Source of the DNA: Polytrichum commune
Taxonomy: Eukaryota > Streptophyta > Polytrichopsida > Polytrichales > Polytrichaceae
DNA: 64,000 nucleotides
Direction of reading: 5' to 3'
NCBI GenBank assembly: GCA_950295325.1
Contig: OX485804.1
Location: 18,042,001-18,106,000 of the forward strand
Shown: piece by piece, positions 8,122 to 29,975 of the stretch
Layout of the letters: each line of letters begins with the position of its first letter
Position numbering within the stretch: the first letter of the stretch is position 1
Translations under genes and position numbers: made by a program
Notes under the pieces: generated by a model
The model's database searches: none
What the model was told of the DNA's origin: nothing
Seen by the model: only the letters and a program-made list of their open reading frames with translations

Positions 8122-8360
8122 TATATAACATCATATTAAACATTATGGGACTTTTGGGAGTCCCAAAATTGCAAAACATGTACATTTTGACCAAAATTCT
8201 ACGTGGGAACGTGAATGGGAACGTGCATGGGAACTTGCCAAAGATTATGTGCGTGTGTATGGGAACGTAGGAACACGGGGGGGGGGGGGGGGGCACTCAA
8301 TTGGGAACCTCAATACGAGGAGTATGGACGAGATTGGGGAACTTCTATGGGAACCATGGC
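8122..8360 (+). repeat. Left inverted end with subterminal GGGAAC boxes
   Basis: The core ATTAAACATTATGGGACTT (ending at 8153) is followed by GGGAAC boxes at 8205, 8217, 8229 and 8261, with more near 8303, 8338 and 8351. The first three are exactly 12 bp apart. The partner block is 29872-29975 in reverse orientation. A run of about 16 G interrupts at 8278-8293. Regularly spaced boxes just inside an inverted end resemble transposase-binding subterminal repeats (inference). Confidence 0.6.
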
Positions 8361-8733
8361 ACATGGCTGGGCCATAACGTTCGCCAATGTACACCACTTA
8401 CACACGATATTTGTGATATTCATAAATAGTTGCCTGCGTACAAATTTTCACAGCACATACGTACAGTGTCCCACCGCACATGTTTGAAATTGCGGGGAAG
8501 TTAGGGTTTAGGGTCCCTACATTGAGGTCTGAAAATCCATACATTAATGGGACCACACCATGCATGATGATATGACATTGGTTGAAATTTGCACATATAG
8601 CAATTAAGGCCGTATCGACAAAAAAATGAGATGTTTGGTTCCAAACGTACTGCCCTATCACCTACCGCAGATCACTAGGGTCTTGACACTGGCTCATCTA
8701 ATCCCGTATCACCTTCAATTCCAGTGTCTTTGA

Positions 8734-11700
8734 TCACCGGGATGTGCGTCCCCCAGATTTACGTCTACCACCTCCATGTCCACGGCCCCCTCGATGCCCA
8801 CTAGACTCCCCGTCGTCCCACCCACCCTCCCTGTTCCCACGCTCGACTGTTGAACACCGTCGAAGATTATCTTTGGCAAAACCAATTTGCTCTGCTGGGA
8901 TAGTAACCTTTAATGGCTCCACATCTTCCTGTGCTGGCAGAGGCCAGGCTGCCAAAATGCAATCGATCGGCTGCCAGTCGGAAACGGAGTATTTCAAATC
9001 TCGTTTCCACTTGAAGTTTGGGTTTGAGTCCCAATCATTCCATTTCTTTGAAAGGTCCCTCGCGGTTGAAGTGGGAGTGAACCACTGTACAAGTATTTGA
9101 CGTGGATGATCTCCCGTGACCGCCAAGTTCGGTACAGACACAGCCCGGCATACCCAAATGGGTCTACCTATATCTTGTTCTTGGGGACGCAATATTAGCA
9201 TATGCCCCTCGTGCACATTCTCTGCGATGCGGAAAGCTGCTGCAGGACGAAGGTTTGCTGGACCAACATAATGGTCGTCCGGTTGGTGCTCTTCCCGAAG
9301 CTCTCCATTCTGCAAGAAGGGATGTGCATCTGCTTCGACTCTACTTCGTGGCCAGAATCCCTCGCATAATGGCAGCCCAACAGTGTATACGTTTTTGAGG
9401 GGTGCATCTAATGCCTCCTTCACCCCTATCCAATATTGCAAAATATGCATGTGTGAACCCATATATGCTCCTGTCGTGTCATGGTCACATATTGATTGCC
9501 AATAGTCAATGAACCCTTGCAATCCCACAAGAACCTCCTCCAGCTTGGCCATACCTCGCGGTGGTGCAGGAAAGGGGTCCCCGGATGGAATACATGGCTC
9601 CCCTTTTATATTTGATTTCCACATCTTCACACCGTCTTTGGGCAACCACTCCCCATGCGTGCTTAGCACTTTGTATTGCATAACTGGCCAACCATCATCT
9701 CGGACATAGAATTTGAACTGTTGAGCCTTGGTGTGCCCAATGAGTTTCTCCTTACCACTTGGGATATGCTCGCTGACGAATGTTCTCCAATCTGGAAGTT
9801 CCTCTATCATGTGTGGAATGACAGGAACCTTTTCCATGTCCATGTATGATTTCATAAGAAGGGGTATAGTGGGATAGCCGTGTTCACGCAGGTCCATACT
9901 CCACCTTCCAAATGATGCATCGATGTCAACATGGGTGTGGCCAACCAATAGATAAGATACATGTACCTCCGTGAATATTGCTTTCGCCGTGAGCATAGAC
10001 CAAAATGCCTTTACAAACCTACACTTGTTGTCCTTCCAACAATTATCAAGCTGAACATGCAGAATGGGTGGAAGAGGAACTGTAGGTGTGGGCTCCGTGG
10101 GTGGGGGTCGTAATCCTCCCAAACATACATCGCTCCCATTGAGAACAACACAATACAAAGGTGCACGCCCGGAACCATGAAAAAGACGCTGGGATGATGA
10201 TATGGGAGGTTCCTCCAAATCGCGTAAAAGTCTCGCGAATGAGCCCACAGTATGGTTGCAATCTCCAGGGTACATGTCCAGTGCATAGTGGGCATATCTC
10301 TCATCTCCATGTCCATGGGCCATCATGCCTGTTACAGAAAGTGGTAGCTTTGTAAACATATCGGTGTCTTTGTTCTTGGAAGCAAAGCAAGGCGATGCGG
10401 TTTTGCCATGGTCCATTTTGTCGTGGATAATCGTCAACACCTTTTGGGGATGCTCAATTGAAAGAGCCCTCATGCATTGGTAAGCGTTGCGAGCCGATTC
10501 TTGTTGTGCTAGGTGTTTTTCCAATTGTTTCGAAAACCCTGTGTGTGCGGCTGAACCTTTCATATGTTGAAGTATAATTGCGGACAACGAATCACACTTC
10601 CCACAACGCGCAAAATTATCACCAACCCTCTTCTTTATGTAGTGCTTAAAGTAGGTATTTCGAATTTTGCTCAGAGTTGAAATAGATATTGGGAGCACTC
10701 CGCATTTGTCATTCACCTGCCCATATAGTATTAGTATAACATTAATAATACTTCACATGAACCATGAACCAAAGTGTATGAAATACGTTCATAATTGCCC
10801 CCTCGTGTCTATTCATTATACACAAACCCAACTCGATTGAATGTTTGATCTCCATTATCAATGCGGGTAATTGGACTATACCAATTGCGTACCTCATTGA
10901 TTGTAACCAAGAACTTCTTCCATTTGGTTCCGCGAGGCAAGACCATTTCTACAACTCGTGTACCATTTGGCAATGTGCGAGCCTTGTGAGGCATCATATT
11001 TGCTTTGTCTTCCAGTAGTGTCGAAAGTGTGGCTGTAGCTTGCTGGGTGGATGTTCGATTCCTTTTCTTATTTAGGTTCCCATGATCGCGTGGACGCATA
11101 CCATTCTTGAATTCCGACCGGTTTCTGTAGAACGTCGTTTTCGAGACGGCAAAAATGTGTCTCCATGCCTTCTCGCAGACATTGCGCCCACTCAAGGTGA
11201 CGACCTTCGTTGAACTTACAGGTAGTACATGTAATTGGCCATGGACTTCGAGTTGCTTAGCATGTCTCATCCGTGGCGAACAAGTGTAGAACTCCGTTCG
11301 TAGCGCAAGTGCCTCTTCCCTGGGAAAATATCTAGTGCACTCCCTATCACAACACACGCTAGCAGATAGTTAGTGGATGCTATTATTATTGAGAATTTGT
11401 GATTTCTTTGTCGGTCTGTTCTGCGGCGTCGTGCGTGATGTTACATATGCCCTCTTCCCCTCTTTCTTCCGTCTTTCTAGCAACGTGTTTTGCACACGCA
11501 ACCTGCGTGTGCTCACTAGGAGGTGGTGTGCAAGTGTATACCTCTGTTGGAAAACCCGATCAAGAGGCCATATTCGCAAGGAGAACATCCATCCCATATC
11601 CATCATTCCCTCTAATGGCTCCATAATAAGCACACCAATATTGTCTATTCCTAGACATTTGTCTTCAACACAATCCATCGGATTGACGTTGCAGCAAATT

Positions 11701-11987
11701 CCTTTTGCCACATTTTGTCCACTCACATTTACAAGCATAACAGGACTATGCAGCCATTCCTCCCTTCTCAGCCCGCTGCAGTCTACATCAATATCCTCTA
11801 TGCCAGCATTAGTGTCGTCTTCCGTGAACACCGCTTCAGATAGTGAAGATCCCTGCATCGTATTATCAGGTAAGTATGTTTGTCCGTACTCATGTCAGAT
11901 ACCACAATATGAAGTTACATCACATTGCAAAGTGGGGCAGTAACTGACCTCCTCGGAGCTCAAATGCTCTACTTCAGGTTGCTCCAT
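8734..11987 (-). CDS. DUF7869-type transposase-like protein, four exons, 955 aa
   Basis: Exons are 11987-11949, 11852-11542, 11358-10824 and 10716-8734. Donors are GAG|GTCAGT, AGAG|GTATAC and TTT|GTGTAT; acceptors end in AG; phases match (0, 2, 0) and the joined frame is open for 955 codons. The start is ATG 11987, giving a Glu-rich N-terminus. Exon 3 has the NVCEKAWRHIFAVSKTTFYR line typical of the N-terminal part of these proteins. In exon 4, counted from its first codon, there is CxxC at 38-41, HDKMDHGK at 98-105, VQLDNCW at 221-227 and GHTHVDID at 259-266. The last two are hallmarks of DUF7869. D102, D224 and D264 are candidate acidic residues of an RNase-H-like fold (inference). The C-terminus is Gly/Arg-rich. 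No break is visible, so this gene may be functional. The first two introns are the least certain part. Confidence 0.75.
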
Positions 11988-12600
11988 TGCCCTGATAACA
12001 ACACATAACTTCATTAACCATATTATTGTGCCGCCTACATAAAGCTCTATTACATGAGAAGTATACACGAATATGGAAACCCATACCCAAATATTAAAGC
12101 ACAACACTGGGCGTGGACATTCAGTAGTTTAGGCGAACATTGATCAACAATAATAAATACAAATCATATTTTATTGACCATGATCAAACAAATACACATC
12201 ATATTTCAGTATGCCTTTATCATGGACCAAAGATATTGATGACACTTTAGTTGTTCAAGTGGGTGATATTTATAGAGGGGTCCCCACGAAATGATGTCCC
12301 TGTTTTCGGAATTCAATGGGGCTTTATCAATACTGATTACACTGCGACCTTGACAGTAGCAATTAAAGGAGCCCAATTGAATACAAGGATATTAGACACT
12401 ATGCTATACGCGGAGGTTAGTATCATTGGAACCTATTCAGAGCACCGATTATAGGTTTATGACAATTACGCGTTTATCCGTCTTGTAGATTGAAGATGTG
12501 TTCGAGGATGTAAATACCGGTGGCCGCCCTTCACAACACTTCATTATGTTAAAGGATGAGCTACACCTACACCTACACCTACACCTATTAATGGATTAAA
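11988..12600. promoter_or_regulatory. Upstream region of the transposase gene
   Basis: This sequence lies just 5' of the minus-strand ATG at 11987. It is AT-rich, with an ORF at 12251-12454 (+) that has no recognisable domain. A short (CTACAC)n repeat at about 12561-12588 borders the palindrome cluster. No promoter element can be fixed by eye. Confidence 0.35.
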
Positions 12601-12604
12601 TGAT

Positions 12605-12964
12605 TTCCTCTCGGCGGAGAGGAACTTGGCGTGGAGATTCCTCTCGGCCGAGAGGAAAATTCTCTCCATGGTCTTTACACCCCGTGGGCGCGTGACTAGG
12701 ACTAGCGGACCATGTCCACTTGCTGATCACATGGAACCATTCTCCACTTCAGTCTTCAAAGTTCTCATTTGGATTTAGGTTGGAGCGCAGTTTGGCGCCG
12801 TAACTCGGATATCGGTTCATCCCGCGTTGCCAGTTCTGATAACAAAAAATGGCCCAATTGGAGCTCTCATTCGGTGCCAGGGTACAGGGTGTCGGGTTTC
12901 CTCTCGGCCGAGAGGAAACTTGGTGCCAGGGTGAAGGGTGAGTTTTCCTCTCGGCCGAGAGGAA
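12605..12964. repeat. Palindrome cluster 1 (four copies)
   Basis: Copies of TTCCTCTCG-NN-CGAGAGGAA lie at 12605-12624 (one arm mismatch), 12638-12657, 12898-12917 and 12945-12964. The centre is GC in all four. Three copies are followed by AACTTGG or AAACTTGGTG, so the repeat unit is longer than the palindrome. The cluster is 0.6-1.0 kb upstream of the transposase ATG. The same palindrome occurs upstream of and inside the ParB-like gene at 18.5-21.8 kb. Confidence 0.85.
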
Positions 12965-13010
12965 ACTTGGTGGCAGTGTTCATGAGGAAAAAAGGGCTAT
13001 GTCAGCTGGG

Positions 13011-13057
13011 CCGTACAACTGTACGGCTGCCACGTGGATGAAGTTGTACGGACAACT
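13011..13057. repeat. Two short palindromes of another type
   Basis: CCGTACA-AC-TGTACGG (13011-13026) is followed by AGTTGT-ACGG-ACAACT (13042-13057). Both share GTAC/ACAACT words and sit directly beside palindrome cluster 1. Stacked two-fold symmetry like this suggests protein-binding sites, but nothing proves it. Confidence 0.6.
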
Positions 13058-13059
13058 GA

Positions 13060-16000
13060 TCGTAGGATCAACGGCAAAAGAAAACATACACTACTTAAAC
13101 CGGCACCTGTAAAAGAGAGCATGTGTTGGGTTCTGAATGCGTGTAGTGTCGACAATGAGAGGTATGGAAATGCCTCAAGAGTGAGAGTCGGAGACGGTTG
13201 TGGGTATGGGCCTTATATAGTAGATGGGAGATTGGTGGTTTTGAAATAGACGGGATCCTCTCTTGTACGGAGAATCAGCAGTTGAGGAGGTGTAGAGAGA
13301 ATGATTGTTTGGCGAGTAGATGTGCTTTCTAGTTGATAGTACATATAATGTACATTCTACACTACCTTCCATTGAATGCGACTGATCTCAAAATTTCGAA
13401 TTTAGTGTACATATATCCTCTCCAATGTGTTCATTGATTGTTGATCGTGGTCTAGTGTGATGAACTCTCAATCCCACTGTAGTCCAATCTCCTATAAACA
13501 TGTGTCATTATGGTATTTGTTCTTTCACAATCACCGAACCACGCACCGACCAGTGGGCCATGGTGGCAGCATGCAATATTTAGTAAATGCCAAAAAATTT
13601 ACCCTAAACCCTTAACCAAAAAAACGGCAAGATGAACCATCATTAATATCCATGGGCCCACTATATAATTGCACTCAAAACAATGTGCCATTGATATATG
13701 AATTTAAGACATTAAAAGGTAGAGTGGAAAAAAAGGCTAACCCCAAACCCCAAACCATCTTGGAGTGTGAAACTAAACATTGTTGTAACTTAATATCATG
13801 TCACACTTGTCTATAGCAAACATGATCCAGTGGGTGACTTGTGGCGAATTCCAAAAATGTGGGGTCAATTGCCATTTCGTAGATGCTTCCATGTTAAGTT
13901 CTTTGTTTGTTAAAATTATGAAAACAATCACTACACTGATTACCCAAATTGGTGAGGGATGGCTAATAGTGTTGTTGGGAAAGTACACTAAATAGGATGT
14001 TGAGTGTTTAATACACTAAATGAGAACAAATACACTCAATATCAATAACCATTAGTGTTAGTAAAGATATGGGAAAAATTGGGATATAATAAGGGATGTG
14101 GTAGTCGGGAAGAAAGCGGTACATTTATGTCCAGCACTAATGGTTAAAGAATTGAAAATTAGTTTTGAGCAAGGTAGGGTGGTGGTAGCAAACCCCAAAT
14201 ATAATCAAACACTAAATATCTTATTTAGTGTAGTGAAGGTGATACTAAAGTTCTTTATGCTAGGGATTTAGTGGCAGCAACAGAGCTAGGAAGCATTGGT
14301 CATCGTGAGTAATATTTATAACATCATTATTCATTTAAAGTATTGGCACTGTTCGTTGACAAGCAATGTGTTTGCATACGAAATGTTTAATCACACTACT
14401 AGCACCTTAGAGAACGCACTAATTTTCTCAAAATGAGCATGTATTTGTGAATTCAAAGATGTATGTGGAGTTTTAGAATGAGTCTTCGTATTATTATAAG
14501 ATAGCTATGTCCAATTTTGGTTCCTTATCTTAATCAAACACCTAGTATATGTCAGTGATATGTGGTTTGATGTGGCTCCAAGAATGGATAATAAAAAGGA
14601 GCTTTATTTTAAGGTATGAGGAGCCAAAAAGCTCGCGATGGGACTAGAGGTACATGTTGTCAAAAAGGCTAATTGCGTGGAGTACTAAAGCACAAGGGCG
14701 TCTACGAGATAGCGGTTGATATCAACTTTATGATCCACTCGGAAAAAGACTTGAGAGTACTATGATCTAAAATAGGGACAACGGTCAAAATCATCATATG
14801 GTCTCCAAAAATGATTAAGAAATGGCTATATCATGACTTGGATAAGGTAACCACTTGTTTCATATCCAACGATAAGTGGGTGCAGAGGTAAAAAATGTCC
14901 ATATAAGAAATGCTTAACTTAGCTCACTTACTTATTGACTTTATTAGTTTTTTCGGTAGCTATGATCTATAATTGACATGATTAAGTATGCCTCCTTGAT
15001 GCCTTTGACCTTGAAATGTGAGTGTATCTAATCCAGTATAACACCACAATGGGCCCACAATATATGTGTGAAATAGTGGAAGAGCAAGATTTAAATGAGA
15101 TGCATGAAAATGGGAAAATGTTTAATGCACAGCCACATTTTAAGAACTAAAAAGAAAAGAGGATGTGGACCCAAGCAATGGGAATCATTACTAACCAACT
15201 AGATGATGGTCTCCATAACATTATTTAGTTGTTATTGAGTGTTCCGTTATAATAATAGTAGGGCTCGGGGCAATCACATCCCCCTTCCATTTCGTTATCG
15301 CGTGCGTTTACCAGGTACGCAACTCCCGTATTATGTGGCCCTGATTATAATCACTTACAATGCGTTTTATTCCAATATTGAGTGATGCAATTTGTTTTAA
15401 TGTAGGAACCCCTTGTGGCCCTTCTAACAGAGGATCCAAAAATGTAATTATATGTATGAAACAAATATGTTTTGAACCATATGATTGCATTGAAAACCTG
15501 ATTATTTGGTTTTTTTGATACATGTACCATAGGTCAAACTACCCAACTTTTTGGAATTTTTGATAAAATTTCAACATTGTGAACGACTTATAATTTTCAT
15601 GGCAGGCAACTAGTCGTGGTTTATAACTCTAATTGGAGGCAACTATTCGGGTGGATTTTTAGAACTATGTGTAGGCAGCTTTTTTCTCATCTCATTTTAT
15701 TTAATTTGGTCTTCAAAAAAATGAGGGGTTGATATAAAACTATTCCCAGTAGGCAATGTTGAGAAGGCATAATTTGAAGCATCACATCCGATTTAATGAA
15801 TTCTTCAAAACCAAGTGCAGCCTCCATGTAACAGGTGAGGCTATATTTACAACGTTACAACATTACACCATGATTATAGAGACATGGATGCATTAATGAT
15901 CAAAGTTGGTTCAACATTTTCCCATTACCATTTTGTAGATGTGATTTTTCCACTCACAACGTGAACTTTGGCCCAAATATTATGAGTTGCATGGCATGGA

Positions 16001-17148: not shown

Positions 17149-17424
17149 ATGACGGCTCAATGTAGGCCGTCGATGCGGGCCACTATCCGAGGCCCCCGGG
17201 TGGAGTCCCTTCGGAATCATTGCGCCTTTTCATTTGTGGCCGCACCTCCTCACTCCCCTCCTCCCTCTCTCCCTCACTCCAACTCTCTCCTTCTCTTTTC
17301 CTCGCATTGCCTCACATTTCCTCGCCTCATTGCATTTCCACGCAATCTCCCACTACTCCAGGTTTGGGCGCGGAGGTGCATATCCAGCGGCTTTGGAAAT
17401 CTTCGGCGCGCCTCACAACTTCTG
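17149..17424 (+). promoter_or_regulatory. Putative 5' untranslated exon of the ParB-like gene
   Basis: This is a GC-richer block with a strongly pyrimidine-rich leader (CTCCCTCTCTCCCTCACTCC). It ends at a good splice donor, CTTCTG|GTGAGTATT, at 17424/17425. The next matching acceptor is TTTTGCAG at 20144-20151, five bases before the ATG at 20157. Spliced that way, it would be a leader exon and the intron 17425-20151 would hold the minisatellite and two palindrome clusters. The ORFs through it change frame freely and I do not treat them as coding. Inference. Confidence 0.4.
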
Positions 17425-18030: not shown

Positions 18031-18539
18031 CTTTAGGTTGCTGAAATATCTTGCTTGAATAAGTAAACATAGTATCTTCAATGTTCTGTTCCTCAACTTC
18101 CTCAAATAATGGTGGATCTAGTTGAATATCAATGTAGCAATTGTAACTGTAGTGGCATTCATCAATGTAAACACTAAACCCTAGAAAATAAACTAAGCAA
18201 ATGTTCTTCTTTTCAATCTCCAGTGACTATATTGTATTTGTTGTTGCCGAACTAGTTCCAAAGTTTGTCTTTCTTCTGCGTTAATTGTTTGTGTGATAAT
18301 CATGCAGTCTCATTGAAAAATCACATCTTATTGCAAGAAATTGAGCCATTGCAGTCTGATAGAGCCATTGACACAATAGTTATGTTTTGGCATGTGCATT
18401 GATATCAATTGCATGAATTCAAAGTCGGTCTTTAATGCTTGATTCAACTCAATGTTACAAAACTCAAAATAGTGTCACAAAATAGTGTGGATAACTTATC
18501 CCTCACACAAACCCTCCCTCAAGCACCAGGATGGGAGGG

Positions 18540-19145
18540 AAAACTTCCTCTCGGGCGAGAGGAAGATTTCCCTGGGGGTTCGCATTTTCAGAGCCCCCCA
18601 CCCTCACTCTCACACTTGAGGGTGAAAACTTCCTCTCGCTCGAGAGGAAGTTCTCCCCTGGCCTCTCATTTTCAAAAGGCCCTCCACACCCTCACTCTCA
18701 CACTTGAGGAGGGTGAAAACTTCCTCTCGCTCGAGAGGAAGTTCTCCCCTGGCCTCTCATTTTCAAAAGGCCCTCCACACCCTCACTCTCACACTTGAGG
18801 AGGGTGAAAACTTCCTCTTGCTCGAGAGGAAGTTCTCCCTTGGCCTCTCATTTTCAAGAGGCCCTCCACACCCTCACTCACACTTGAGGAGGGTGAAAAC
18901 TTCCTCTCGTTCGAGAGGAAGTTCTCCCCTGGCCTCTCATTTTCAAGAGGCCCTCCACACCCTCACTCACACTTGAGGAGGGTGAAAACTTCCTCTCGCT
19001 CGAGAGGAAGTTCTCCCCTGGCCTCTCATTTTCAAGAGGCCCTCCACACCCTCACTCACACTTGAGGAGGGTGAAAACTTCCTCTCGCTCGAGAGGAAGT
19101 TCTCCCCTGGCCTCTCATTTTTAAGAGGCCCTCCACACCCTCACA
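18540..19145. repeat. Palindrome cluster 2: seven units of 85-91 bp
   Basis: Palindromes start at 18544, 18629, 18720, 18811, 18900, 18989 and 19078; the steps are 85, 91, 91, 89, 89 and 89 bp. Each unit is a palindrome with arms AACTTCCTCTCG / CGAGAGGAAGTT and a two-base centre, then a conserved tail (GGCCTCTCATTTTCAA, CCCTCCACACCCTCACTC, ACTTGAGGAGGGTG). The centres are GG, CT, CT, CT, TT, CT, CT. The copy at 18811 has one arm substitution. The 91-to-89 change is loss of one TC or CT pair in the tail. The ORFs through it (18439-18798, 18704-18976) are products of the repeat. Confidence 0.9.
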
Positions 19146-19787
19146 CACTGACGTCTCCCTAGCCTACAATCCTTTTTCAAATATTCAAAGATGTCAATTC
19201 TTCGAGTCATTTCTCTGTCAATATCGTCATCCTTGCACCAGGCAGAAGCACGTTTCAAATCAAGCTCATTGATGATCACATTACAAAGAACTGGATACTT
19301 GGAACCAAGATGTGTAATTACCGACAATCTTGAGTATGTGCTGTGATGAATGCTTAATAGAGAAGTTTTTGATAGAGCTTGCGACTAAAATTACTTTGGT
19401 ATGCAAACGTCTTCATACATTATTAATCGATTTTGGCGATTTGTGGTTGGAAAATGGCAGGTTCGTTATCTCAGACAGTTTCGTGAGTTGCAACTCCCTT
19501 GCCTTGAATTCAACCCTCTTTGCAAGGTACAAGTTCGACTTCAAGAAAATGATAAAGAAAAAGAATGTCATTGTTATTTACAACTGATATGTGATGTTTG
19601 TTCATCAATCCCTACTCATGGGGAGCGTGGGAACTGGTTTAATGTTTAATTAGTCTATATTATGTTAGTAAATCAAATATGGATGAATGGATGCATGTCT
19701 TTTATTTTGTTTTTGGTTTCCATCAATTTATAATGATGTGGGTTAGGTATTCGATGACAAACCCCTATCAACATGACAGCAGGAAAG

Positions 19788-20022
19788 GGAAAACTTCCTC
19801 TCGAGCGAGAGGAAGTTTTCCCCTGCGCTCACATTTTAAGAGCCCCTCCCAACCCTCACACGCAGACTTGAGGAGAGGGAAAACTTCCTCTCGACCGAGA
19901 GGAAGTTTTCCCTTGCACACTCATCTTATTAGCCCTCTCCTAGCCCTCACTCCCTAGACTTCAATCCACCCCTATCAACATAGAGCAGGAAAGGGAAAAC
20001 TTCCTCTCGACCGAGAGGAAGT
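19788..20022. repeat. Palindrome cluster 3 (three copies)
   Basis: The palindromes are centred in 19794-19815, 19884-19905 and 20000-20021, with centres AG, AC and AC. Symmetry extends past the core: the first has 17-base arms from GGGAAAAC, the second 18-base arms from AGGGAAAAC, and the third 19-base arms with one mismatch. The last lies 135 bp before the ATG at 20157, just upstream of the acceptor of the proposed leader intron. Confidence 0.9.
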
Positions 20023-20156
20023 TCTCCCTTGCACACTCATCCGTCACAGTATGTAAACCCTATTTATCAACGTACGCGATAGCCTCAAGGTGCAAGCTCT
20101 CTCAAGCTTGCTTTATTCCACAAATACTAACCATTTCAATTTGTTTTGCAGGTGAC

Positions 20157-21590
20157 ATGGAGAAGGAAGTGCTATGGACAGACCTTGTTGGGACAATGGA
20201 AATAGGGCAGAAGGGTGTCTATTGGGAATTAAAAGACACTCACTTGAGACACTGGTCAATTCAGGTACACAGGAGGGACAAAGAATCTCCGTTAAAACTA
20301 ACCCTCGCATACAGGGTAGGAAAAAATTGGATTCCAAACCTAGGAAACGCAATAACCCTGGCATCGGTCGGCGATCGCGACCAGCTTAATGTAACGGTGC
20401 TCGAAGGACTCGAAGAACGCACTTTGTCCATCGACTGCAAAAGACATAGATTTCACCTGGAGCCATTCACCCAATCAATCGAAATGCTTTCTCATGCGGA
20501 TAAAGAAGAGATGGAGAGAGTGATGGTCTCCGGTGTATCGAAGAAGGAAATTAACTTCCTTCTTGAAGCAATAGGTGATATCAATTCGAGAGAGGCAAAC
20601 GAAATGGAGGCTCTTAGGACGCAAAAGAAGAAACAAGCGGAGACACTTCTGAAATCTAGGACTGATGATGAGGGGAGTAAGAAGAAGAAACAAAAGAAGC
20701 AAAAACCCGGCGATCAAGATGTTGAAGGAACAAGAGAGGTGGCAAAGAAGCCCAAGAAGGCTTCTGGTGAACTCGTTCCCTTGGCAACGCCTACAAACGC
20801 GACGCCAATTATGCAAAGCCATCCCCAAGAGACATCAAGTGCAAGGAAACCTCCGGCCTCAAAGAGAACTACTGATGAGGAGCGGAAGACAAAACCTAAG
20901 AAGGCGAAGGCTGCGGATGCATCGGAAGAAACTCTACTAGTGCTCACCGCAACAGAGAGGGGCAGAGTCATCGCACATGGCGAGGAACCAAGCCTGGAGG
21001 AAGCTGCAGCGGACCGCAAGAAATTTGTCCAATTATTTGGACACTTATATCCTTTCGGTATCGAGAAAGTTTTTCATGTCCACATAAAGAAGATGTTGAG
21101 CGCAAAGTCTTATCAGGTTACTCGCCCATTGGATGATGTCGGAGTAGCTCTCATGAAAAACTACCTTATACAGACCCCACCAGCGTGGCCCAATCACAAT
21201 CTATGTCTCATGCCGAAACTCAATAAGGGTGAGACATGGAGAGAAAGAATGACCTGGGACGATATCAAGGACGACAATTTTGTGATCATCAATGGTCAAC
21301 ACAGCGTGGCTGCTTCGAGGCAGATTATAGGGCACAAGGATACAGATCGAACACTCAAGGATAAATTGAAGATTTGGCCTTGTACGATTGTTTGGACCAA
21401 TGATCCAAACATGACAGTTCGTCTCTCCTATACTCTAAACAACTCTAATTCTTTCAACAAGTTCACTCCTACTTGGACAACACAAATTATGTACTGTCGT
21501 AGGGTGTGGGTGAAACTAGGGAGGCCCTCTAAACAACGGATCAACGCTGTGGGGACAACTATAGACCCCAAAATGAAGGAGGCATGGAGA
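20157..21590 (+). CDS. ParB-like/FCP1-like mosaic gene, exon 1: ParB/Srx-like region
   Basis: The exon has 478 codons from ATG 20157, which follows an acceptor (TTTTGCAG) at 20151, to the donor AGA|GTAAGT at 21590. Residues 1-130 form a compact region (VLWTDLVGTMEIG, LKDTHLRHWSIQVHRRD) that I cannot name. Residues about 165-260 are Lys-rich and disordered (KKKKQKKQK), a likely nuclear-localisation and linker region. Residues about 375-390 carry FVIINGQHSVAAS, matching the GQH/GHHR-type box of ParB/sulfiredoxin-fold proteins; canonical Arg after His is Ser here. Known members bind DNA or nucleotides; the function here is inferred only from the box. The gene is transcribed away from the transposase gene. 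Confidence 0.6.
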
Positions 21591-21654
21591 GTAAGTTTTC
21601 ATACACCCACTTTCATTCCAACTTTTATTTTTGCACTCCCACATGCAGACTCCT

Positions 21655-21803
21655 CTCCCATCCCTCAATCAGGGATCAAAGGCTTGAGGGAGGTGAGGGA
21701 ACTTCCTCTCGGCCGAGAGGAAGTTCCATCGCCTCCCTCAAGCCCTTGATCCCTGATTGAGGGATGGGAGGATTCATGGAACTTCCTCTCGGCCGAGAGG
21801 AAG
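21655..21803. repeat. Palindrome cluster 4, including a ~110-bp palindrome, in intron 1
   Basis: Two copies, 21702-21723 and 21782-21803, both have a GC centre. The first is the middle of a much longer palindrome, 21661-21764. Its arms of about 52 bases (TCCCTCAATCAGGGATCAA, GGCTTGAGGGAGG) match with about 3 differences and extend a few bases further with a gap. The cluster lies wholly in the intron 21591-21868. A hairpin this long in a transcript would be very stable. Confidence 0.9.
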
Positions 21804-21868
21804 TTCCCTCGCCTCTACCCTCCATTCATAGTTACTTCAACTTGTGTTCTAACACTTCTCCATTGCAG

Positions 21869-23247
21869 AATTTCACGACAAGCATGGAGGCTTCATTTAC
21901 CGCCATTGCTAGAGGGATCACCCACAATGACCTTAATGCTGAGCTGGCACTCATCATGGCAGATGATGAGACCTCAAGGATGTGGAAGAAGGTATTTCAA
22001 GGACACGAGAAAGGGACCCTTATTAACCCGGACAAACCAGGCTCCACCTATTTAGAAGAATATCTGGACACGCAACAGAAACAGCGAGCCCGCCACGACA
22101 AGAAAAAATCGGCAACACCATTCGAGAAGAAGCCGTATGTTTGTAAGCCATTGACCAGGGAAACTTTCAGGGTGATGGCAGGCCTAACACGGCCCGACTA
22201 TCTTCTGTGTGCGAGACGTATCCTCGAGGTGAGGCCTGGCGAAGAGGTTCCTAGAGTCTCTCTCCGTGTCACGATGTCACGACCTTGAAGTCGTGGTGTA
22301 ATTTTAGGAAGTGGAAGAATATTCTTCTGCAAGAGTTGTCAGCACACGACCCAGACGATCTTGGCATTTGGGGAAAGGACTCGGAGGACAATGAATGCCT
22401 TAATAGATCTGTTTGGGACAAATTCAAGAGGGACCATGGCATCACGAAGGCCAAATGGGTGAAGCTTTATCAGGTTGCAGGTGATGGTTGGCTAAATAAG
22501 AAGCGGTTGCCGAACTACAAGAAACTGGACCCTACCCCGGCATGCTTGCGTTTGTTGTAAGAGTGGCTGCAAACACCGGTAGAAGAGAGTCAAGGACAAG
22601 TGATCACTCGATATGTAGATTATAATTCTCTGAAGCGGAAGTTGGTGATCCCTAATCAGGACAAGGTCGACACTGATTGGTTCTCGAAGTTCACCATTAC
22701 AGGGGGCTTCATCGACTTTAGATTCATCCCGGGGTGTGTCGATAAGGCAGTATCATCGTCGGTGGTCGAGTCCTTGGTGAAGTATGTTGCAAACCCGATC
22801 TGGGTCCCGGGCCTCAAAAAAATCCCCGCTTGGATGATTGTGTCCGATTTGCGCAACCACCCCACGGCTGAAGAGTTCATCTCCGCCTTGATTCGCAAGC
22901 ACCCGGGGACGTTTCTGAACGTTCCGTCAGTTTATCTACCTTGTCACGCTGAGGATCAAACCTTCAACAAGGAAATAGATTGGCTAAGGACTACCCCTCT
23001 TTTTTATGTGGACTTCCTCACTTGCCGAAGTATCCTCCCGCGCCACAAGCAGTTTCGATGTCCCATGATAGCGCCTGTAACTCGGCGTTACAATGTGAAC
23101 CCGAAGGAGTGGTCGGAGCTTTTATACGAAGCGAACAGAGGCGAGTTGCGAATGGAGGTTTACAACTCGTTTCTCAGCAACCTTGGAAACTCGGGAGGAG
23201 TTGTGATAAATCTATTCGGCGGGTTGAAGCCTATTGCTGCCGCATTT
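21869..23247 (+). pseudogene. Mosaic gene exon 2, with a frameshift and a stop
   Basis: The exon runs from acceptor TTGCAG (21868) to donor TTT|GTGAGT (23247). It encodes about 460 residues of no recognised family (SMEASFTAIARG; CNFRKWKNILLQEL; KLVIPNQDKVDTDWF). Two lesions are visible. The opening frame closes at TGA 22286 and the coding continues in another frame from about 22255-22290; the exon length (1379) fits loss of one base. An in-frame TAA at 22558 then splits LRLL from EWLQTP. Both flanking segments look coding, so these are real defects or sequencing errors, not intron borders: no matching donor-acceptor pair resolves them. This copy of the gene is therefore probably not able to make full-length protein. 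Confidence 0.6.
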
Positions 23248-23325
23248 GTGAGTACATACAATATCCGCAACCTTGCTTTTATTCGCAGGCTTGTTTATCT
23301 ATTCTGATATTTTTCATGTATGCAG

Positions 23326-24498
23326 ATGAACGAACAGCATGTGTTCTCGTGCATGGACTCTAGCTTCATGCACACGCTTCCCGAGAAGATAGATTACGTT
23401 CGGCGACTTCGGGCTGTGGACTTTCAAGATGACCAAGAAGACCATGAAGTTGTAGGTGACGGAGATGACCACCCTCAACCTCAGCAAGAAGCACCCCCTG
23501 CACTGTTGCTGGAGGATGTTTCGCGAGATCCGTCACCCGGTTTGGACATCGACGCCATGGACGTTGATAGAAACGAATCCGAGGGCGAGTATGAGGAGCC
23601 CGAAGATGACGACAAAGAGGCGCCTAGTGAACATGATACAGAGGAGGCCTCCAGTAGAGGGGAAAGCGCCCATATGGATACGCAATCGGATGAATGCGAA
23701 TCCATTCACACACAATCACCACAACCACAGTCCGCTTCACCTATGCGCGGCAGGGTCTTGGAATTTGAAGAGGACGAGCATGTCACCTCTCTAGCGGAAG
23801 GTGACCCGGCCGAAGACCAGTATCGCGACGAGGATCACGAGGGAGATGCCAATGAAGAGCAAGATGCCGAGTACTCGGACCGTGAGGAGGAGTTTGAGGG
23901 AACGCTCCAGGAGGAGCTCGAGGGGGGCCTTGACGACGCACAAGAAGGGGCTTGCGAGGGAGCACAAGAAGAACGAGAGGTGGCTCAAGGAGAACATGAG
24001 CAGGCTCGTGTTCAAGAGGAGGCCGAAGGTGATGCGGCTGAGCTCACACCTGAAGTGGCAACCACCTCCCGGCCTTCCACGGCGTCAATTGTGTCTGAGA
24101 GCGAAGAAGAACTGCCACCGCCCAGTGCCCCAAAATCCAAGGCCTCCAAGCGAGGCAAGCACAAGGACCGGCATACGAAAAGACATAGTTCTCGGGTTCC
24201 AGAGCCTGTGATAGCGGAGTCTGTATTGGAAGACAAGATTGTGGGGATCTTGAGAAGCACACTGCCGAACATGCTGTCGGGTTTGCTCCAAGAAGCGTTG
24301 GGCCTGGCAAAAAATACCCCCCCTCAGCAAGTGCCGACACCAACACCCACAGTGGATGTTGCAGTCGGTGCAGCCGAGCCCGAAAGGGTGGACGATCAGG
24401 TGGGCGCATCGCTCCCAGTTGGCGTGCAAGCAGTGGATGTCTCCTGCGTGGATGCAGCACCGACAACCATCGACACCTCCGACAAGGCCGAGGTCAGT
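23326..24498 (+). CDS. Mosaic gene exon 3: acidic disordered linker
   Basis: 391 codons lie between acceptor TATGCAG (23325) and donor AGT|GTAAGT (24498), phase 0 at both ends. The first 30 residues (NEQHVFSCMDSSFMHTLPEKIDYVRRLR) look ordered. The next 250 are extremely rich in Glu and Asp with Gln/Ala runs (EDDDKEAPSEHDTEE, AQEGACEGAQEEREVAQGE), a disordered acidic region like those of chromatin-associated proteins. A basic patch (KASKRGKHKDRHTKRHSSR) follows at about residues 265-290, then a short hydrophobic helix (ILRSTLPNMLSGLLQEALG). No catalytic motif is visible. Confidence 0.55.
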
Positions 24499-24795
24499 GT
24501 AAGTATTCGATCCCCGTGAACATTTCAGTATGCAAGTTTTTCTGTTCAAGTGACTAAATCTCCACCTGGATATTTGATCCAGGTCGGTGATGGCGCGGCA
24601 TCTTGAAGCTAAAAGTGGACTAGGACGAGTAGAATAAATAGAGTTAGGGGTGTTGATTACCCGGAACTCATCCCTTGTGGGGAGGAGATGCAATATGTTC
24701 GACCATTTATTATAAATAAAGTGGATTCCTTTGTCTAGCACATGTATTTTCTAGTTTGCATTCAATTGTCCTTAATGATGTCTTGCAATTCACAG

Positions 24796-25461
24796 GCTTG
24801 CCTGCACAACCCAGAACGAGTGGATGCATCACACACTGCAATTTTGTCTATTCAAACGTCACTAACTCCAATCGACGACCACCACATCAACCCCTTGCCT
24901 ATTGTGGTTCCCATACACACTTCGGATGCAGCGGTGGTCACCCGCGCTCCACCCACGGCCCCGTCACCGCCAGAACATCTGCAAGCTCAGGTTCCATCGC
25001 CGCGTATGGCACTCTCGCCGACTGGCATCAAACAAGTGGCAAATTCTACAATTAGTGACATCATTCAAGAAGTTATCCAAGTGCCACATTCTGCGCAGCC
25101 TCCACTTGAGCCCTCACCTTTGGAGGTTGTCGAGCTATCGCCGCAAGGTGTGGATGATGATGTTGCCAACGAAGAGGCTTCAACTCCACCCGTGGAGTGC
25201 CCTCAAACAAAGCCACAGTCGCATGCGACGGCATCCACGAGTGCTGTCAATGTTATCCCATTGGACTCGTCGAATCCAGAAGCCACCATAAATGCTCCAC
25301 AAGCTGTTAGGAGGTATTTGACACATTGGCCACAAGGCGAGAAGGCTCCCCATCCAGTATTCAACAACGTTAGTTGCCAAGATTTCCGGACGACGCACAA
25401 CAACCAAGACGATCAGAGACGGCGTGCCGAGCTTCTAAAAGTGGTGCCTTCACATGTCAAA
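24796..25461 (+). CDS. Mosaic gene exon 4: Pro/Ser/Thr-rich linker
   Basis: 222 codons run from acceptor TTCACAG (24795) to donor AAA|GTAAGT (25461), phase 0. The composition is Pro-, Ser-, Thr- and Val-rich with low complexity (PPTAPSPPEHLQAQVPSP). A more ordered tail, VRRYLTHWPQGEKAPHPVFNN, precedes a basic helix (DDQRRRAELLKVVPSHVK). I recognise no family. It continues the disordered middle of the protein. Confidence 0.5.
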
Positions 25462-25586
25462 GTAAGTTTATTCCATCCAATGCATTCGTTAAAAGGCACG
25501 TTAGTTTCGATTGACATATGTGTATTTCGACCTTTTCACCTCCCCATTTATTTAAATTCGCGTAGTTTTGGGTTTAGGCTCCACAG

Positions 25587-25802
25587 CATTCGATAGCGCC
25601 TTTGGATGCGCCTCTACCAAAAGACGTCGTCTATGATAAGCTATTTGTTTACGATGACACATACCCAAAGATCAATAGACCTTGCCAAGTTTTCACAAGG
25701 GAGATGGGAATCGCGTGTGCTAAAAGACTAATGTCTAAGTATCCCGAAGATCCTTCCCTAGGGTACTCTGAGCGATGGGAATTCAATCCAATACAGTACG
25801 AG
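25587..25802 (+). CDS. Mosaic gene exon 5
   Basis: 72 codons run from an acceptor at CCACAG (25586; TTTAG at 25577 is an in-frame alternative) to donor GAG|GTATTG (25802). A second in-frame donor, ATG|GTATAG, lies at 25889/25890. The peptide (DAPLPKDVVYDKLFVYDDTYPKINRPC, then GIACAKRLMSKYPEDPSLGYSERW) looks like an ordered domain, but I cannot name it. Phase 0 on both sides fits its neighbours. Confidence 0.45.
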
Positions 25803-25982
25803 GTATTGATCGTGGCCCATTTCTCCCTGTCGTTCGAGTTCGCCCATACCACACGTGGTTTGGAGGACTACACAATGAACTACTTAATGGTATAGTCCAT
25901 CATGCCTAGGTTTGCGAGGTCATTCTATGTTTAATTTATATGTAGCACATGTCAAAAGCTCACAGTGGGTTCATGTCGGCAG

Positions 25983-26768
25983 GCGCCTGCTGCTACACCC
26001 AGTCGAAGGTTCATTGTGGTGTTTGATTTAAACGGCATATTTTGCCACTGTTCCCGACGTAACCCGGGTATGGTGACTGTGCCCACTTGGATAACTTACG
26101 ATAAAGCACCGGACAAACCTCCGGCCTTGGTAGGGCCCAAGGTTGTCCTACCTAGACTGGGATACAAGGTGTTTTGGTTGCGGATGTCCTCCATGTTCCA
26201 TGTTTGCATATGGTCATCCATGAAAAAATCCACTGTAGACCTTGTGGTGGAGTATCTATTTGCCGGGGGCCCAAAACCCGCATTAGTACTTGGCCAAGAG
26301 GATTGCACCTTGTTCAAGGACATGTGGAACAATGTCGTCATGAACCCTTTGAAGCCAGAAGCTCCTTTGTTTTTGAAAAGTTTACTCAACAAGTTTTGGT
26401 GGCCGCCTATATCCTTTGATTCTGGAAGGATCACAGCTGCACCCTCGAACACCATTCTAGTAGACGATTGCCCTTACAAATATGTTTGCAATCCGGACGA
26501 GTGTGATATCTTTCCCAACCCATTCACATCCAATCGGGTGCAAGACGCAGACATGGCAAAGGTCCTCCTTCCTTACTTTCAATCATTGTTCTACTCACCA
26601 ATGTCCGACGCACGCGAATTTGTGGTCAGCCGTAGGTTTGGGCAACAACCTGTACGGCATAACGATGCAGTCAAGGTGGCAGTTTTGAAATCCAACGGGC
26701 TTGAAGAAACCGACTCGGAAATTGTAGAAAAGTTGCAAATCGATCGAATAGAAGTAGCAAAGAAATAA
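25983..26768 (+). CDS. Mosaic gene exon 6: FCP1/NIF-type HAD phosphatase-like domain
   Basis: The exon starts at acceptor GTCGGCAG (25982) and is open to TAA 26766-26768. An in-frame donor, AAG|GTGGCA, at 26675 would allow splicing to exon 7 instead of stopping. The motif order matches the FCP1-homology (NLI-interacting factor) family: RFIVVFDLNG at the start, CIWSSMKKSTVDLVVEYL in the middle, then NTILVDDCPYKYVCNP and DIFPNPF. The catalytic DxDGT box reads DLNGI: the first Asp is kept, the second is Asn. Plant NIF proteins with DLNG are known, so activity is doubtful but the fold is well supported. A phosphatase-like domain linked to a ParB-like box inside a mobile element is unusual. Confidence 0.65.
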   Translation, partial: APAATPSRRFIVVFDLNGIFCHCSRRNPGMVTVPTWITYDKAPDKPPALVGPKVVLPRLGYKVFWLRMSSMFHVCIWSSMKKSTVDLVVEYLFAGGPKPALVLGQEDCTLFKDMWNNVVMNPLKPEAPLFLKSLLNKFWWPPISFDSGRITAAPSNTILVDDCPYKYVCNPDECDIFPNPFTSNRVQDADMAKVLLPYFQSLFYSPMSDAREFVVSRRFGQQPVRHNDAVKVAVLKSNGLEETDSEIVEKLQIDRIEVAKK

Positions 26769-26813
26769 GTAGGATTGTATGTCTAGTAACATTGTATTTT
26801 ATGGTATCTTCAG

Positions 26814-26993
26814 CTTCCTCCTGCTGGGTACACACCATCCAGTTCCACGCCATCAGCTTTTGCGTGCCCCACTTCGGGGCTCTCACGCGGTCCAATAGAG
26901 GCGAAACAAGTTTCAGAGTCGCACAACCCAATGGAGGTTTCACCAGTGAAGAACAACTTGCACCATGTGCAATGGACAGATGGATCAACTCTG
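26814..26993 (+). CDS. Mosaic gene exon 7 (short linker)
   Basis: 60 codons run from acceptor CTTCAG (26813) to donor CTG|GTAATT (26993). The open frame is Pro/Ser-rich then mixed (LPPAGYTPSSSTPSAFACP; NNLHHVQWTDGSTL). Phase 0 agrees with the exons on both sides. The case rests on splice sites and the open frame only; using it requires the internal donor of exon 6. Confidence 0.4.
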
Positions 26994-27229
26994 GTAATTT
27001 ATTATTGTGTCATTTATTATTATAGTGTTATTTATTGTTTCGACAACATTATTGTGTAAAGGTTATTATAATATCAAACACACATTTCATTACCAATTCA
27101 GGGTCATTAGCATAAGTATACTTGAATCTGTATAAATCCAAACTCGCTTGAACGTGCATGTGTACGCAATTTTGGTTCAGTTGCTACCGCATATGCGAGT
27201 TATGAAATCATGATAAGTTGCAAACATAT

Positions 27230-27405
27230 ATATGTATGGGTGTATATGTGTATATGTGTATGGGTGTATATCTGTATATGTGTGTGTATATGTGTATGGG
27301 TGTGTATATGTGTATGGGTGTATATGTGTATGGGTGCATATGTGTATATGTGTATGGGTGTATATGTGTCTATGAGTGTATATGTATGCACGAGTGTATG
27401 TAAAT
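27230..27405. repeat. TGTATATGTGTATGGG microsatellite
   Basis: About 175 bp of alternating purine-pyrimidine repeats built from GTATATGTGTATGGGTG. It lies in an intron of the mosaic gene. It yields long artefact ORFs on both strands. Confidence 0.9.
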
Positions 27406-27446
27406 TAGTAAGCCAAATAAATGCGTGTCACTTTGTCACCGTGCAG

Positions 27447-27920
27447 GGTGTTGATCTCAATATGGAACCCGCAGTGGAAGATTGTGCATCCCCTTGTGAA
27501 ACATTGCCCGTCCTGCGCTCTATCTCTACACGCGACCACCAAATCTCCCTCATTGAATCAAGAGGCCCTAACTCAAGGGGTGTTCACATGTTACGTGCGG
27601 GATTGGCGAGCATTGGCAAAACTTATGACCCACAACCTATCACGACCACAGTGCCAACGATACTTTTGAACACGCAAGGTGCTGACTTCAATATGAAACC
27701 ATTGGGACCACCTTCCACCCGCGAGCATCAAATAGAGCTTATTGAGTCAAGAGGTCCTAATTCAAGAGGCGTCAATCTATTGCATGCGGGGTTGGCTGAC
27801 CTCGCGACACACACAGAGCACGGTCCGGAAACGGTTAGCCTCCCCTTGGAAGGCCCAAAATACCACAATCAATGTGATGGACAGATGATTTGTCTGTACC
27901 CTAAATATGCTAGAAGTTAA
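27447..27920 (+). CDS. Mosaic gene exon 8 with an internal duplication
   Basis: The exon starts at acceptor GTGCAG (27446). It is open to TAA 27918-27920, with an in-frame phase-0 donor, ACG|GTTAGC, at 27833. Two near-identical motifs lie about 65 residues apart: HQISLIESRGPNSRGVHMLR and HQIELIESRGPNSRGVNLLH, each followed by AGLA. Each is preceded by a D-NM-P peptide (GVDLNMEP, GADFNMKP), so the whole module is duplicated. The family is unknown to me. SRGPNSRG could be a short linear binding motif (inference). Confidence 0.5.
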   Translation, partial: GVDLNMEPAVEDCASPCETLPVLRSISTRDHQISLIESRGPNSRGVHMLRAGLASIGKTYDPQPITTTVPTILLNTQGADFNMKPLGPPSTREHQIELIESRGPNSRGVNLLHAGLADLATHTEHGPETVSLPLEGPKYHNQCDGQMICLYPKYARS

Positions 27921-28775
27921 ACAATCCCGTGACCAATTGTGCGGGCATTCATATGTGTACACAATATTTAGTGCAACACTCAATATATAAAAGTGGCCAG
28001 ACACTCCCAATACCCAACGCATTGTCTTATATCAAGTCGGTTCACATGTCAACCATGCTCTCATTTTGCTTACCATATCCACATGCTTGTTTGCACCCAA
28101 TGTATGGTTCTTGCTTGTCCTTCATAAATCCATCATCGAGCACTCCCCCATGTATGGGTGGAACATGTAGTGCATAAACGATACAGCGGAAGCTCCATGT
28201 GAATGTTTTCGTTCTGTCTTGCATAACTGCTTCATGGGAAGCTGCCCCTTCATGTAACCTATTTGTCCTGCCAAAACTCTTCTGTGATTGGACACAACGC
28301 GTAGGGCGCCTTTGTCTTGAATGCACACTCCCAGAGGAACAACCCATGTGTGCACCATGTAAATCCGCCCTTAAGGTATAGACACCCTATAACCGATAAC
28401 GATCCCATCACCGACAAGTAGAGTAGCTCATAAATGCACATGGCTTTACTAGAAGTCGTTATGAATATATATAAAATGCGAGGACAATATGACTGTGGAG
28501 GGGAAGTTGTTTCCCATAGATATTGTCGGTCATGTGTGAAGCTATGTGTTGGTTATGGGCTTTGACCGACTTTCGCACAAAGAAATTTTACACAATCAAT
28601 TTTGAAAAAAAGGTCATTATTCATGAACCTTATTTTCCTACGCACAAAAAATAACTCCTCCTTGATATTCCAAGATATGCTATGCTGAAATGCTTAAGTT
28701 TTCGGTTATAGGTATCTATACCTCACATGTTGAAGTGTTATTCACACTTGTTCGTACTATTCAATGCCGTGTCAG

Positions 28776-29678
28776 GATGCCCCTCCCAACCCGGCCAGTT
28801 CCCCCCCAGCTCCCCAGCCAACTAGGTTCGGGGAGGTCATTGCGAGAATGCAAACAGCTGAACTGGAACGCCTGTTAGGCCTCCCAATGGAAAGGAGGAG
28901 TATGGACGACGAGTTTAACAACTTAGCTTCAGATATTGATGTGTGCATGGAACGGTTCATGCAACTACAATCATTTATGACCACTGCTTTAGATAGATAT
29001 AAAGGATGCCGCTTGGTTGGAATGGATGCACACATGCTTGGGAGATTGGTGGTATACAGTGCCGATATAGGGCTCACCATCCCACAAGTGGAGGCACTCC
29101 AACAACGTCTCCCAGAGTTGCACTTAATAGAGAACGATATGTGGGAAGCTACTCAAGCAATCGAGCCCCATTTAGATGACTTACTCCGCCGTGATTCAGA
29201 AGACATGTTGAACCATGTCTATGACATCACGGATGAGAACCTCCCAATCACACCATTGTTGGAAGCCTGTCATATTGCCGATCCACAGAATGATGAAGGA
29301 GACCCAGTGGAACCCACAATGGGGGAGCGTAACATTGATTACGAGTTTTACTACTTAGCATCGCAGATCCATGACGTAACGCGCGAGTTTATGGGACTAC
29401 AGAGGACCATGACAACTGCTCTACAGAGATATACGGGCACTCTTTTGCTCGGCGATCGCATACACCGCCTTTGTATGTTGGTGTTAGCGGCAGAACACAT
29501 TGGCTTTGACTCTCAGCAAAAAGCCTATCTTGGGAGCAAAATACCGGACTTGGCTTACATGGAGAAAGTTACATGGGAGCAATCTCGGGAAATCAAACCT
29601 CACTTGCCAAACATCTTTGAGTCCATGGCCAAACAGGACTCCACAATTTGCGAAAGCCAAGGCACAAATGTAGAGTAA
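28776..29678 (+). CDS. Mosaic gene last exon: tandem pair of ~145-residue modules
   Basis: 300 codons run from acceptor GTGTCAG (28775; an ATG at 28764 is an alternative start) to TAA 29676-29678. A Pro-rich leader is followed by two homologous modules. Module 1 holds MDDEFNNLASDIDVCMERF, MTTALDRYKGC and LPELHLIENDMWEATQAIEP. Module 2 holds IDYEFYYLASQIHDVTREF, MTTALQRYTGT and IPDLAYMEKVTWEQSREIKP. Both look all-helical. I do not recognise the fold. The stop lies about 270 bp from the right inverted end of the 22-kb candidate. The 0.85-kb gap after exon 8 means this could also be a separate small gene. Confidence 0.55.
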   Translation, partial: DAPPNPASSPPAPQPTRFGEVIARMQTAELERLLGLPMERRSMDDEFNNLASDIDVCMERFMQLQSFMTTALDRYKGCRLVGMDAHMLGRLVVYSADIGLTIPQVEALQQRLPELHLIENDMWEATQAIEPHLDDLLRRDSEDMLNHVYDITDENLPITPLLEACHIADPQNDEGDPVEPTMGERNIDYEFYYLASQIHDVTREFMGLQRTMTTALQRYTGTLLLGDRIHRLCMLVLAAEHIGFDSQQKAYLGSKIPDLAYMEKVTWEQSREIKPHLPNIFESMAKQDSTICESQGTNVE

Positions 29679-29871
29679 TTTAAGTTATGGCATGTTACAG
29701 GCATTTATAGCACAATATTCAATCGAGTGGACGCCTCCTAGCATAGAATTGGTGTTTCAATGAAGAGGATTGTGGGTGCAAACCTCCTGTTGTGTGACAG
29801 TCTATGCAAAAGCCCATTGGAAGCAAAGAGTATTTGTCTTGCATGGGCATGTCCATCCAAAGTGTCTACGA

Positions 29872-29975
29872 GTTCCCAATGAGTTCCCAATGAGTTCCCC
29901 ATGAGTTCCCCACATACATCCCAGAAGTCCCAAAATCATCCTAAAGTCCCATAATGTTTAATATCGCGTTATATA
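29872..29975 (-). repeat. Right inverted end with subterminal boxes
   Basis: On the plus strand GTTCCC boxes start at 29872, 29883, 29894 and 29905, exactly 11 bp apart. The inverted core follows at 29944-29975. Read on the minus strand, this is the same order as the left end: core, then GGGAAC boxes inward. The 11-12-bp spacing would put the boxes on one face of the helix. Confidence 0.65.

Follow-up and report, generated by a model that had tools for sequence, protein, structure and literature searches.

A giant inverted-repeat transposon of Polytrichum commune joins a DUF7869 gene to a divergent ParB-like gene and carries family-differing palindrome arrays

What kind of element lies between two inverted repeats in a 64-kb stretch of the Polytrichum commune genome, and what might its ParB-like gene do there? 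A preliminary description of this stretch (hereafter the window, 64 kb starting at C2:18,042,001) had read the segment as a candidate giant DNA transposon with two genes, one for a DUF7869 protein and one for a protein combining a ParB/Srx-like box with an FCP1/NIF-type domain. From this window and searches of the 408-Mb assembly, we find that positions 8127–29970 are one copy of a giant terminal inverted repeat (TIR) DNA transposon with past mobility, and that its conserved core consists of the DUF7869 gene and the divergent ParB-like gene. New here are palindrome arrays, located upstream of each gene and within the presumed first intron of the ParB-like gene; they differ between families around a CG-NN-CG centre.

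The transposon and its gene pair

The inverted match described previously is real (8122–8157 against 29940–29975, 36 nt, 89% identity). Aligning facing pairs of termini placed the exact ends of the element at AAC (8127) and GTT (29970), giving a length of 21,844 bp and leaving the outermost 5 bases of each match outside. All 15 terminus pairs showed a target duplication of constant length (4 bp) and no fixed sequence, as is proper to TIR DNA transposons. The 20-base TIR core (≤2 mismatches) had 81 and 98 matches in the genome, against 3 and 1 for the reversed control, and among the 73 exact core matches listed we counted by eye at least 25 facing pairs, 22 of them spaced 20–73 kb. A chance inverted repeat was hence rejected, both by this excess over the control and by the 4-bp duplications. 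Six further near-full-length copies align end to end with the window copy, one of them with a 2-kb deletion; pairwise identity among the seven is 96.5–98.6%. Internally deleted short copies of 5.6 kb and 4.55 kb were also found. At C1:53900894-53901661, facing termini lie just ~0.77 kb apart, possibly marking a miniature non-autonomous relative. The subterminal repeats of the two ends are oriented towards each other: GGGAAC occurs 7 times in the left 300 bases and GTTCCC 4 times in the right 300, with 0 in the opposite sense at either end, while the 42 kb outside the element hold 8 GGGAAC and 4 GTTCCC.

Sola1 transposons make 4-bp target duplications, as do other superfamilies, and the duplication found here agrees with the Sola1 value; as a guess, we take DUF7869 to be the Sola1 catalytic domain. 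Polinton/Maverick elements, which encode DNA polymerase B and a retroviral-type integrase and make 6-bp duplications, were rejected on the 4-bp duplications and on the lack of any Pfam match to DNA polymerase B or integrase in 10 element frames.

The two genes point outward from a shared centre and stop ~580 bp and ~270 bp short of the inverted blocks, within the 270–600 bp given earlier. To follow them through the genome we used the DUF7869 exon (66 matches scored out of 2,320 candidates) and the ParB-like domain (150 scored out of 880) as queries, retaining for the pairing test the 64 ParB-like matches left once 5 second fragments and 81 more distant rows (27-34% identity) had been set aside. 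A divergent ParB-like match lay within 60 kb of 53 of the 66 DUF7869 matches, compared with 0.35 expected for random positions (the length of chromosome C6 being guessed), and this linkage makes the gene pair part of the element. The spacing was 9.5–13.1 kb in 34 of these pairs. Even a distant family (L066), with a ParB exon of 25% identity across the alignment, has a DUF7869 gene in the same divergent position; its main exon is 49% identical across 503 residues. Together with the duplications and the near-full-length copies, this co-occurrence bears out the reading of the segment as a giant DNA transposon.

Many of the 81 distant ParB-like rows lie in open frames of more than 440 amino acids (aa). 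One identical score is common to 18 of them, and 8 family c rows likewise score alike; both patterns suggest a recent expansion of related elements.

Palindrome arrays beside both genes

The preliminary description mentioned neither the palindrome arrays nor the methyltransferase-like exon treated below. The palindrome TTCCTCTCG-NN-CGAGAGGAA (≤3 mismatches) occurs 16 times in the window, always within the element, with 0 occurrences in the remaining 42 kb and 0 in 20 shuffles. Background palindromes were rejected as an explanation, there being 3 unrelated ones in the 42 kb outside and 15 inside, 14 of one kind. The six other near-full copies carry 11–15 palindromes each, and the copy of subfamily b (C1:37.76M, 31 kb) carries 13, some with 1–3 mismatches. 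In subfamily b they occupy the same kinds of place, ahead of both genes and inside introns, although most noncoding DNA is no longer alignable; the 20-base palindrome core is common to families a and b and the flanking bases differ. This subfamily b copy also has a Copia retrotransposon nested at element positions 18490-22608, in the ParB-like gene region (L049-L052).

Palindromes of the other families came from a blind scan for perfect palindromes: CACTTTCACTCG-AT-CGAGTGAAAGTG in family c, TTTACGAACG-NN-CGTTCGTAAA in family d and TTTACGGACG-NN-CGTCCGTAAA in family e. A CG-NN-CG centre is common to the palindromes of all these families, and a single change, present in mirror image in the two arms, separates that of d from that of e. 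The pairing itself is not evidence, since palindromes are what the scan selects; the evidence is the repetition, the common centre and the common placement. The genome-wide count covers family c only, whose palindrome has 210 sites (≤1 mismatch; reversed control 0). Among those listed, all 50 distinct sites have a ParB-like or transposase match no more than 3 kb away. The number of sites varies between elements by tandem units of 73–75 bp, with for instance 14 (C1:63.20M) and 3 (C2:57.19M) upstream of the ParB exon.

The proteins, their selection and their history

From its place in the element we infer that the DUF7869 protein (PF25273, E 1.5e-39) is the transposase. A search of PDB by sequence with it gave no match, and our literature search, which most subscription papers lay beyond, found no paper naming DUF7869.

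The FCP1/NIF domain claimed for the second gene is likewise found by Pfam (E 4.1e-9), and the duplicated helical modules can be made out in frame 28734-29678; the NIF exon is a candidate part of the ParB-like protein. The ParB/Srx-like box has no Pfam match; the model of the first exon has a predicted ParB/sulfiredoxin fold, with KorB among its structural matches. An (I/V)(D/N)GQH(S/T) box is present in all 10 rows covering that region (11 rows aligned). GERR- or CHR-type nucleotide boxes are a ParB/sulfiredoxin feature, and such a box with its Arg is absent from the same 10 of 10 rows. A DUF4100 match in this exon was set aside as weak (E 0.1-0.14).

The second exon is modelled as a whole permuted amino-methyltransferase (Rossmann) fold over residues 245-463, so that both the ParB/sulfiredoxin and the amino-type DNA methyltransferase folds are recognisable in the predicted structures, and it has a segment, N-x-(F/C)GG, resembling S-adenosylmethionine (SAM) motif I. 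The DPPY-type catalytic motif [DNS]PP[YFW] occurs in none of 8 aligned second-exon rows (three partial; families down to 21% identity), where an invariant DFR stands. Since DFR replaces the methyltransferase motif, we expect the domain to bind DNA or SAM and not to act as a methylating enzyme. Other searches were of little help: phage-record proteins gave no match with the ParB and second exons, PDB by sequence gave none with the second exon and only unrelated ones with the ParB profile (E 0.25 or worse), nothing was confirmed in viral contigs, NCBIfam had only matches below its cut-offs, PHROGs had none, and Rfam had none at gathering score.

Both genes and the NIF/FCP1 exon are under purifying selection. 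Between family a copies and subfamily b, the ratio of nonsynonymous to synonymous substitutions (dN/dS) is 0.12-0.17 in the transposase, 0.135 in the ParB exon and 0.144 in the second exon, rising to 0.33-0.48 across the NIF, repeat, helical and short pre-NIF exons, 0.34 in the acidic exon and 0.61 in the proline-rich exon. Synonymous divergence (dS) is uneven along the element: it reaches ~1.0 in the ParB exon and the second exon, falls to 0.88 and then 0.59 in the two exons that follow, and is 0.24-0.52 elsewhere, the transposase and 3' exons included. This contrast, noticed for 20157-24500 in the comparison with subfamily b, gives the element a mosaic look, as if its ParB block had split earlier or been exchanged between families. 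The window copy itself has one in-frame stop in the upstream transposase exon and a frame change plus stop at 22558-22560 in the second exon; other copies bear different lesions.

The copies also bear marks of their host. At alignment columns where at least six of the seven copies agree, transitions affect 171 of 1,427 CG sites, 135 of 1,072 CHG sites, 313 of 6,630 CHH sites, 69 of 5,787 A and 66 of 5,694 T. Such an excess at CG and CHG is what decaying 5-methylcytosine leaves behind, and the copies were therefore probably silenced by the host in the plant manner.

Table 1. Features of the element in the window. dN/dS values compare family a copies with subfamily b.
Feature	Position	Strand	Basis or remark
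Target site duplication ATAT, left copy	8123..8126	.	15/15 pairs with 4-bp duplication
Left TIR, AACATCATATTAAACATTATGGGAC...	8127..8157	+	Inverted match and pair alignment
Left subterminal repeats, 7 x GGGAAC	8205..8354	+	Motif count
Putative transposase, DUF7869 exon, 672 aa, open in window copy	8737..10752	-	PF25273 E 1.5e-39; dN/dS 0.12-0.17
Putative transposase, upstream exon	10812..11894	-	360 aa open in C1:76.8M copy; dN/dS 0.17
Palindrome array 1, TTCCTCTCG-NN-CGAGAGGAA, 4 sites	12605..12964	.	Upstream of transposase gene
Palindrome array 2, 10 sites, some within 89-bp tandem repeat	18545..20020	.	Upstream of ParB-like gene
First exon of ParB-like gene, 478 aa, open	20157..21590	+	Predicted ParB/Srx-fold domain, residues ~304-435, motif INGQHS; dN/dS 0.135
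Palindrome array 3, 2 sites	21703..21802	.	Presumed intron 1 of ParB-like gene
Second exon, amino-methyltransferase-like	21869..23244	+	463 aa in open relative; dN/dS 0.144
Acidic, low-complexity exon	23326..24500	+	dN/dS 0.34
Proline-rich exon, weakly constrained	24790..25470	+	dN/dS 0.61
Short conserved exon preceding NIF exon	25578..25895	+	dN/dS 0.48
NIF/FCP1-type HAD domain exon, 263 aa	25977..26768	+	PF03031 E 4.1e-9; dN/dS 0.42
Exon with duplicated STR(D/E)HQI..IESRGPNSRGV module	27440..27920	+	dN/dS 0.33
Exon with two similar helical modules	28770..29678	+	dN/dS 0.39
Right subterminal repeats, 4 x GTTCCC	29872..29910	-	Motif count
Right TIR, ...AATATCGCGTT	29940..29970	-	Inverted match and pair alignment
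Target site duplication ATAT, right copy	29971..29974	.	Pair alignment

Outside the element, the window holds a dispersed repeat at 4122-4298, 6517-6726 (inverted relative to the others) and 60137-60362, with aligned pieces 83-95% alike, and tandem arrays at 57597-58055 (92-bp unit, 5 copies) and 58544-58997 (147-bp unit, 3 copies). A frame with a flavin mononucleotide (FMN) oxidoreductase domain at 46165-46677 (PF00724, E 4.7e-17) probably belongs to a plant OPR-like gene of the host; this exon and the CHG decay both suggest a land plant.

Possible roles of the ParB-like protein and its palindromes

Bacterial ParB, Noc and KorB act with parS-type palindromic sites. The likeness of our element to these systems, on the predicted models, is the fold of one domain and the repeated palindromes near its gene; it differs in its altered nucleotide box, and no ParA ATPase was seen among the 10 larger element frames scanned with Pfam.

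Closer parallels exist among transposons. In Ectocarpus the Sola1 transposon Sola1-1_Ec32, 21.5 kb long, has on the strand opposite its transposase a gene for a ParB plus DNA-methyltransferase protein, which its authors suggest binds and epigenetically marks the element's own sequence (PMC12477816). It resembles our element in size, in the transposase with an opposite-strand gene and in the ParB-like and N4C/N6A-type methyltransferase domains, whereas ours adds NIF and further exons, lacks the DPPY-type motif and has palindrome arrays, of which the accessible text makes no mention for Sola1-1_Ec32. The same paper cites ParB-methyltransferase proteins in green and red algal transposons (including Petroll et al. 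2025), and it is by this citation only that we count them as the same type of accessory protein. An accessory gene of the ParB-methyltransferase type is thus already published for a giant transposon, and the preliminary description's claim of an element type not described before is partly wrong. The Ectocarpus paper is the sole direct ParB-transposon precedent that we noticed, in a search that was not aimed specifically at palindromes and did not reach most subscription papers. The 4-bp duplication and the Ectocarpus parallel point to a Sola1 affinity, which we treat as a candidate assignment; we do not file the element as a member.

The second parallel is VANC of the Arabidopsis VANDAL elements (Hosaka and colleagues), whose family-specific tandem motifs lie in noncoding DNA, both inside introns and ahead of the transposase gene (PMC5735166). 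Family-specific motif arrays in noncoding parts are found in our element too, and in both cases an element-coded protein accompanies short tandem motifs that differ between families. VANC has DUF1985, a 9-bp motif and a Mutator-type transposase, while the window's element has palindromes of 20-26 bp as candidate binding sites, and its 10 element frames have no Pfam match to DUF1985 or a Mutator-type transposase.

Joining the VANC-type motif arrays (PMC5735166) with the Ectocarpus protein type (PMC12477816) leads to a protein that probably recognises its family's palindromes and protects or regulates the element. The reading we favour, at slightly better than an even chance, is that the ParB/methyltransferase-like protein binds its own palindromes and thereby serves anti-silencing or self-marking of the element. 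As a symmetric dimer, it would sit on the palindromes of its own family and spread, or recruit factors, from them, so that the divergent promoters and the element would be kept open despite host cytosine methylation. By analogy, this would be a VANC-like anti-silencing system assembled from bacterial-type parts. A more specific version seems to us possible and rather less likely: in a eukaryotic transposon superfamily, a bacterial ParB-parS-like module, fused to a dead methyltransferase, would have become a sequence-addressed chromatin system, in which each family evolves private palindromes that load matching clamps, and these spread over 22 kb and shield the family's copies from host CG/CHG methylation.

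Several observations weigh against the self-recognition reading. Some genes occur independently, which the preliminary description had named as a danger to its proposal, in a minority of cases (13 of 66 DUF7869 and 11 of 64 ParB-like matches have no partner within 60 kb). Families a and b have the same palindrome core despite ParB exons only ~75% identical, and a more distant copy showed no palindrome in its pieces L056 and L062. Diversity is lower in the palindromes (0.024) than in flanking noncoding DNA (0.060), which is only suggestive, the palindrome value coming partly from tandem repeats where the alignment is unsure; a long central noncoding stretch is less diverse still (0.017). The structural models have a low mean predicted local distance difference test score (pLDDT; 54 for the ParB exon, 51 for the second exon), Foldseek gave no match below E 0.001 with either, and no helix-turn-helix domain was identified in the ParB-like protein. 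CTP binding is doubtful because the ParB box (GQHS/GQHT) lacks the second Arg of GERR-type boxes. Finally, the palindromes could instead serve the transposase or a host factor.

Among the alternatives, an active N6-adenine or N4-cytosine methyltransferase could mark its own element, with the palindromes as recognition or loading sites. The whole permuted fold predicted for residues 245-463 and the motif I-like N-x-(F/C)GG speak for it, and the Ectocarpus authors propose the same for their protein (PMC12477816). We consider it unlikely, given [DNS]PP[YFW] in 0 of 8 rows and the invariant DFR, although the catalytic placement of DFR depends on a low-confidence model. We give a similarly small chance to an ordinary KorB-like transcriptional regulator or transposition co-factor, for which the palindromes would be operators of the divergent promoters and would have no part in anti-silencing. 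The placement of the arrays, ahead of each gene and inside intron 1, and KorB among the matches of the predicted structure are consistent with such a role; however, 11-18 sites per element, their tandem expansion and the intron sites exceed operator needs, and the copies carry host-methylation marks.

The palindromes might also be RNA or DNA hairpins (for recombination or as small-RNA triggers) or transposase sites, independent of the ParB-like gene. The mirrored d/e changes would preserve hairpins too, and palindromes lie near the transposase gene also. We find this quite improbable, since they sit near gene starts, away from the termini on which a transposase works, and the dS of the ParB and second exons (~1.0 against 0.24-0.52) gives the palindrome-rich block its own history. 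Passive capture of the ParB/NIF region as cargo, the word used in the preliminary description, was rejected as hardly credible: giant transposons commonly carry accessory genes of unknown function (PMC12477816), but the linkage of 53 of 66, the same layout in a distant family and the purifying selection seen in dN/dS make the ParB-like gene a conserved partner.

The self-recognition reading predicts a protein-site pair for which families with differing palindromes are built-in specificity controls, and it concerns a class of accessory proteins whose role has so far only been suggested, in the Ectocarpus paper (PMC12477816). Some families have many open frames with the same score, a hint that they were active recently, which makes tests in living plants look feasible. 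If true, this would be a further anti-silencing system besides VANC, independently built, and a eukaryotic use of ParB-like loading, which could yield sequence-specific epigenome tools.

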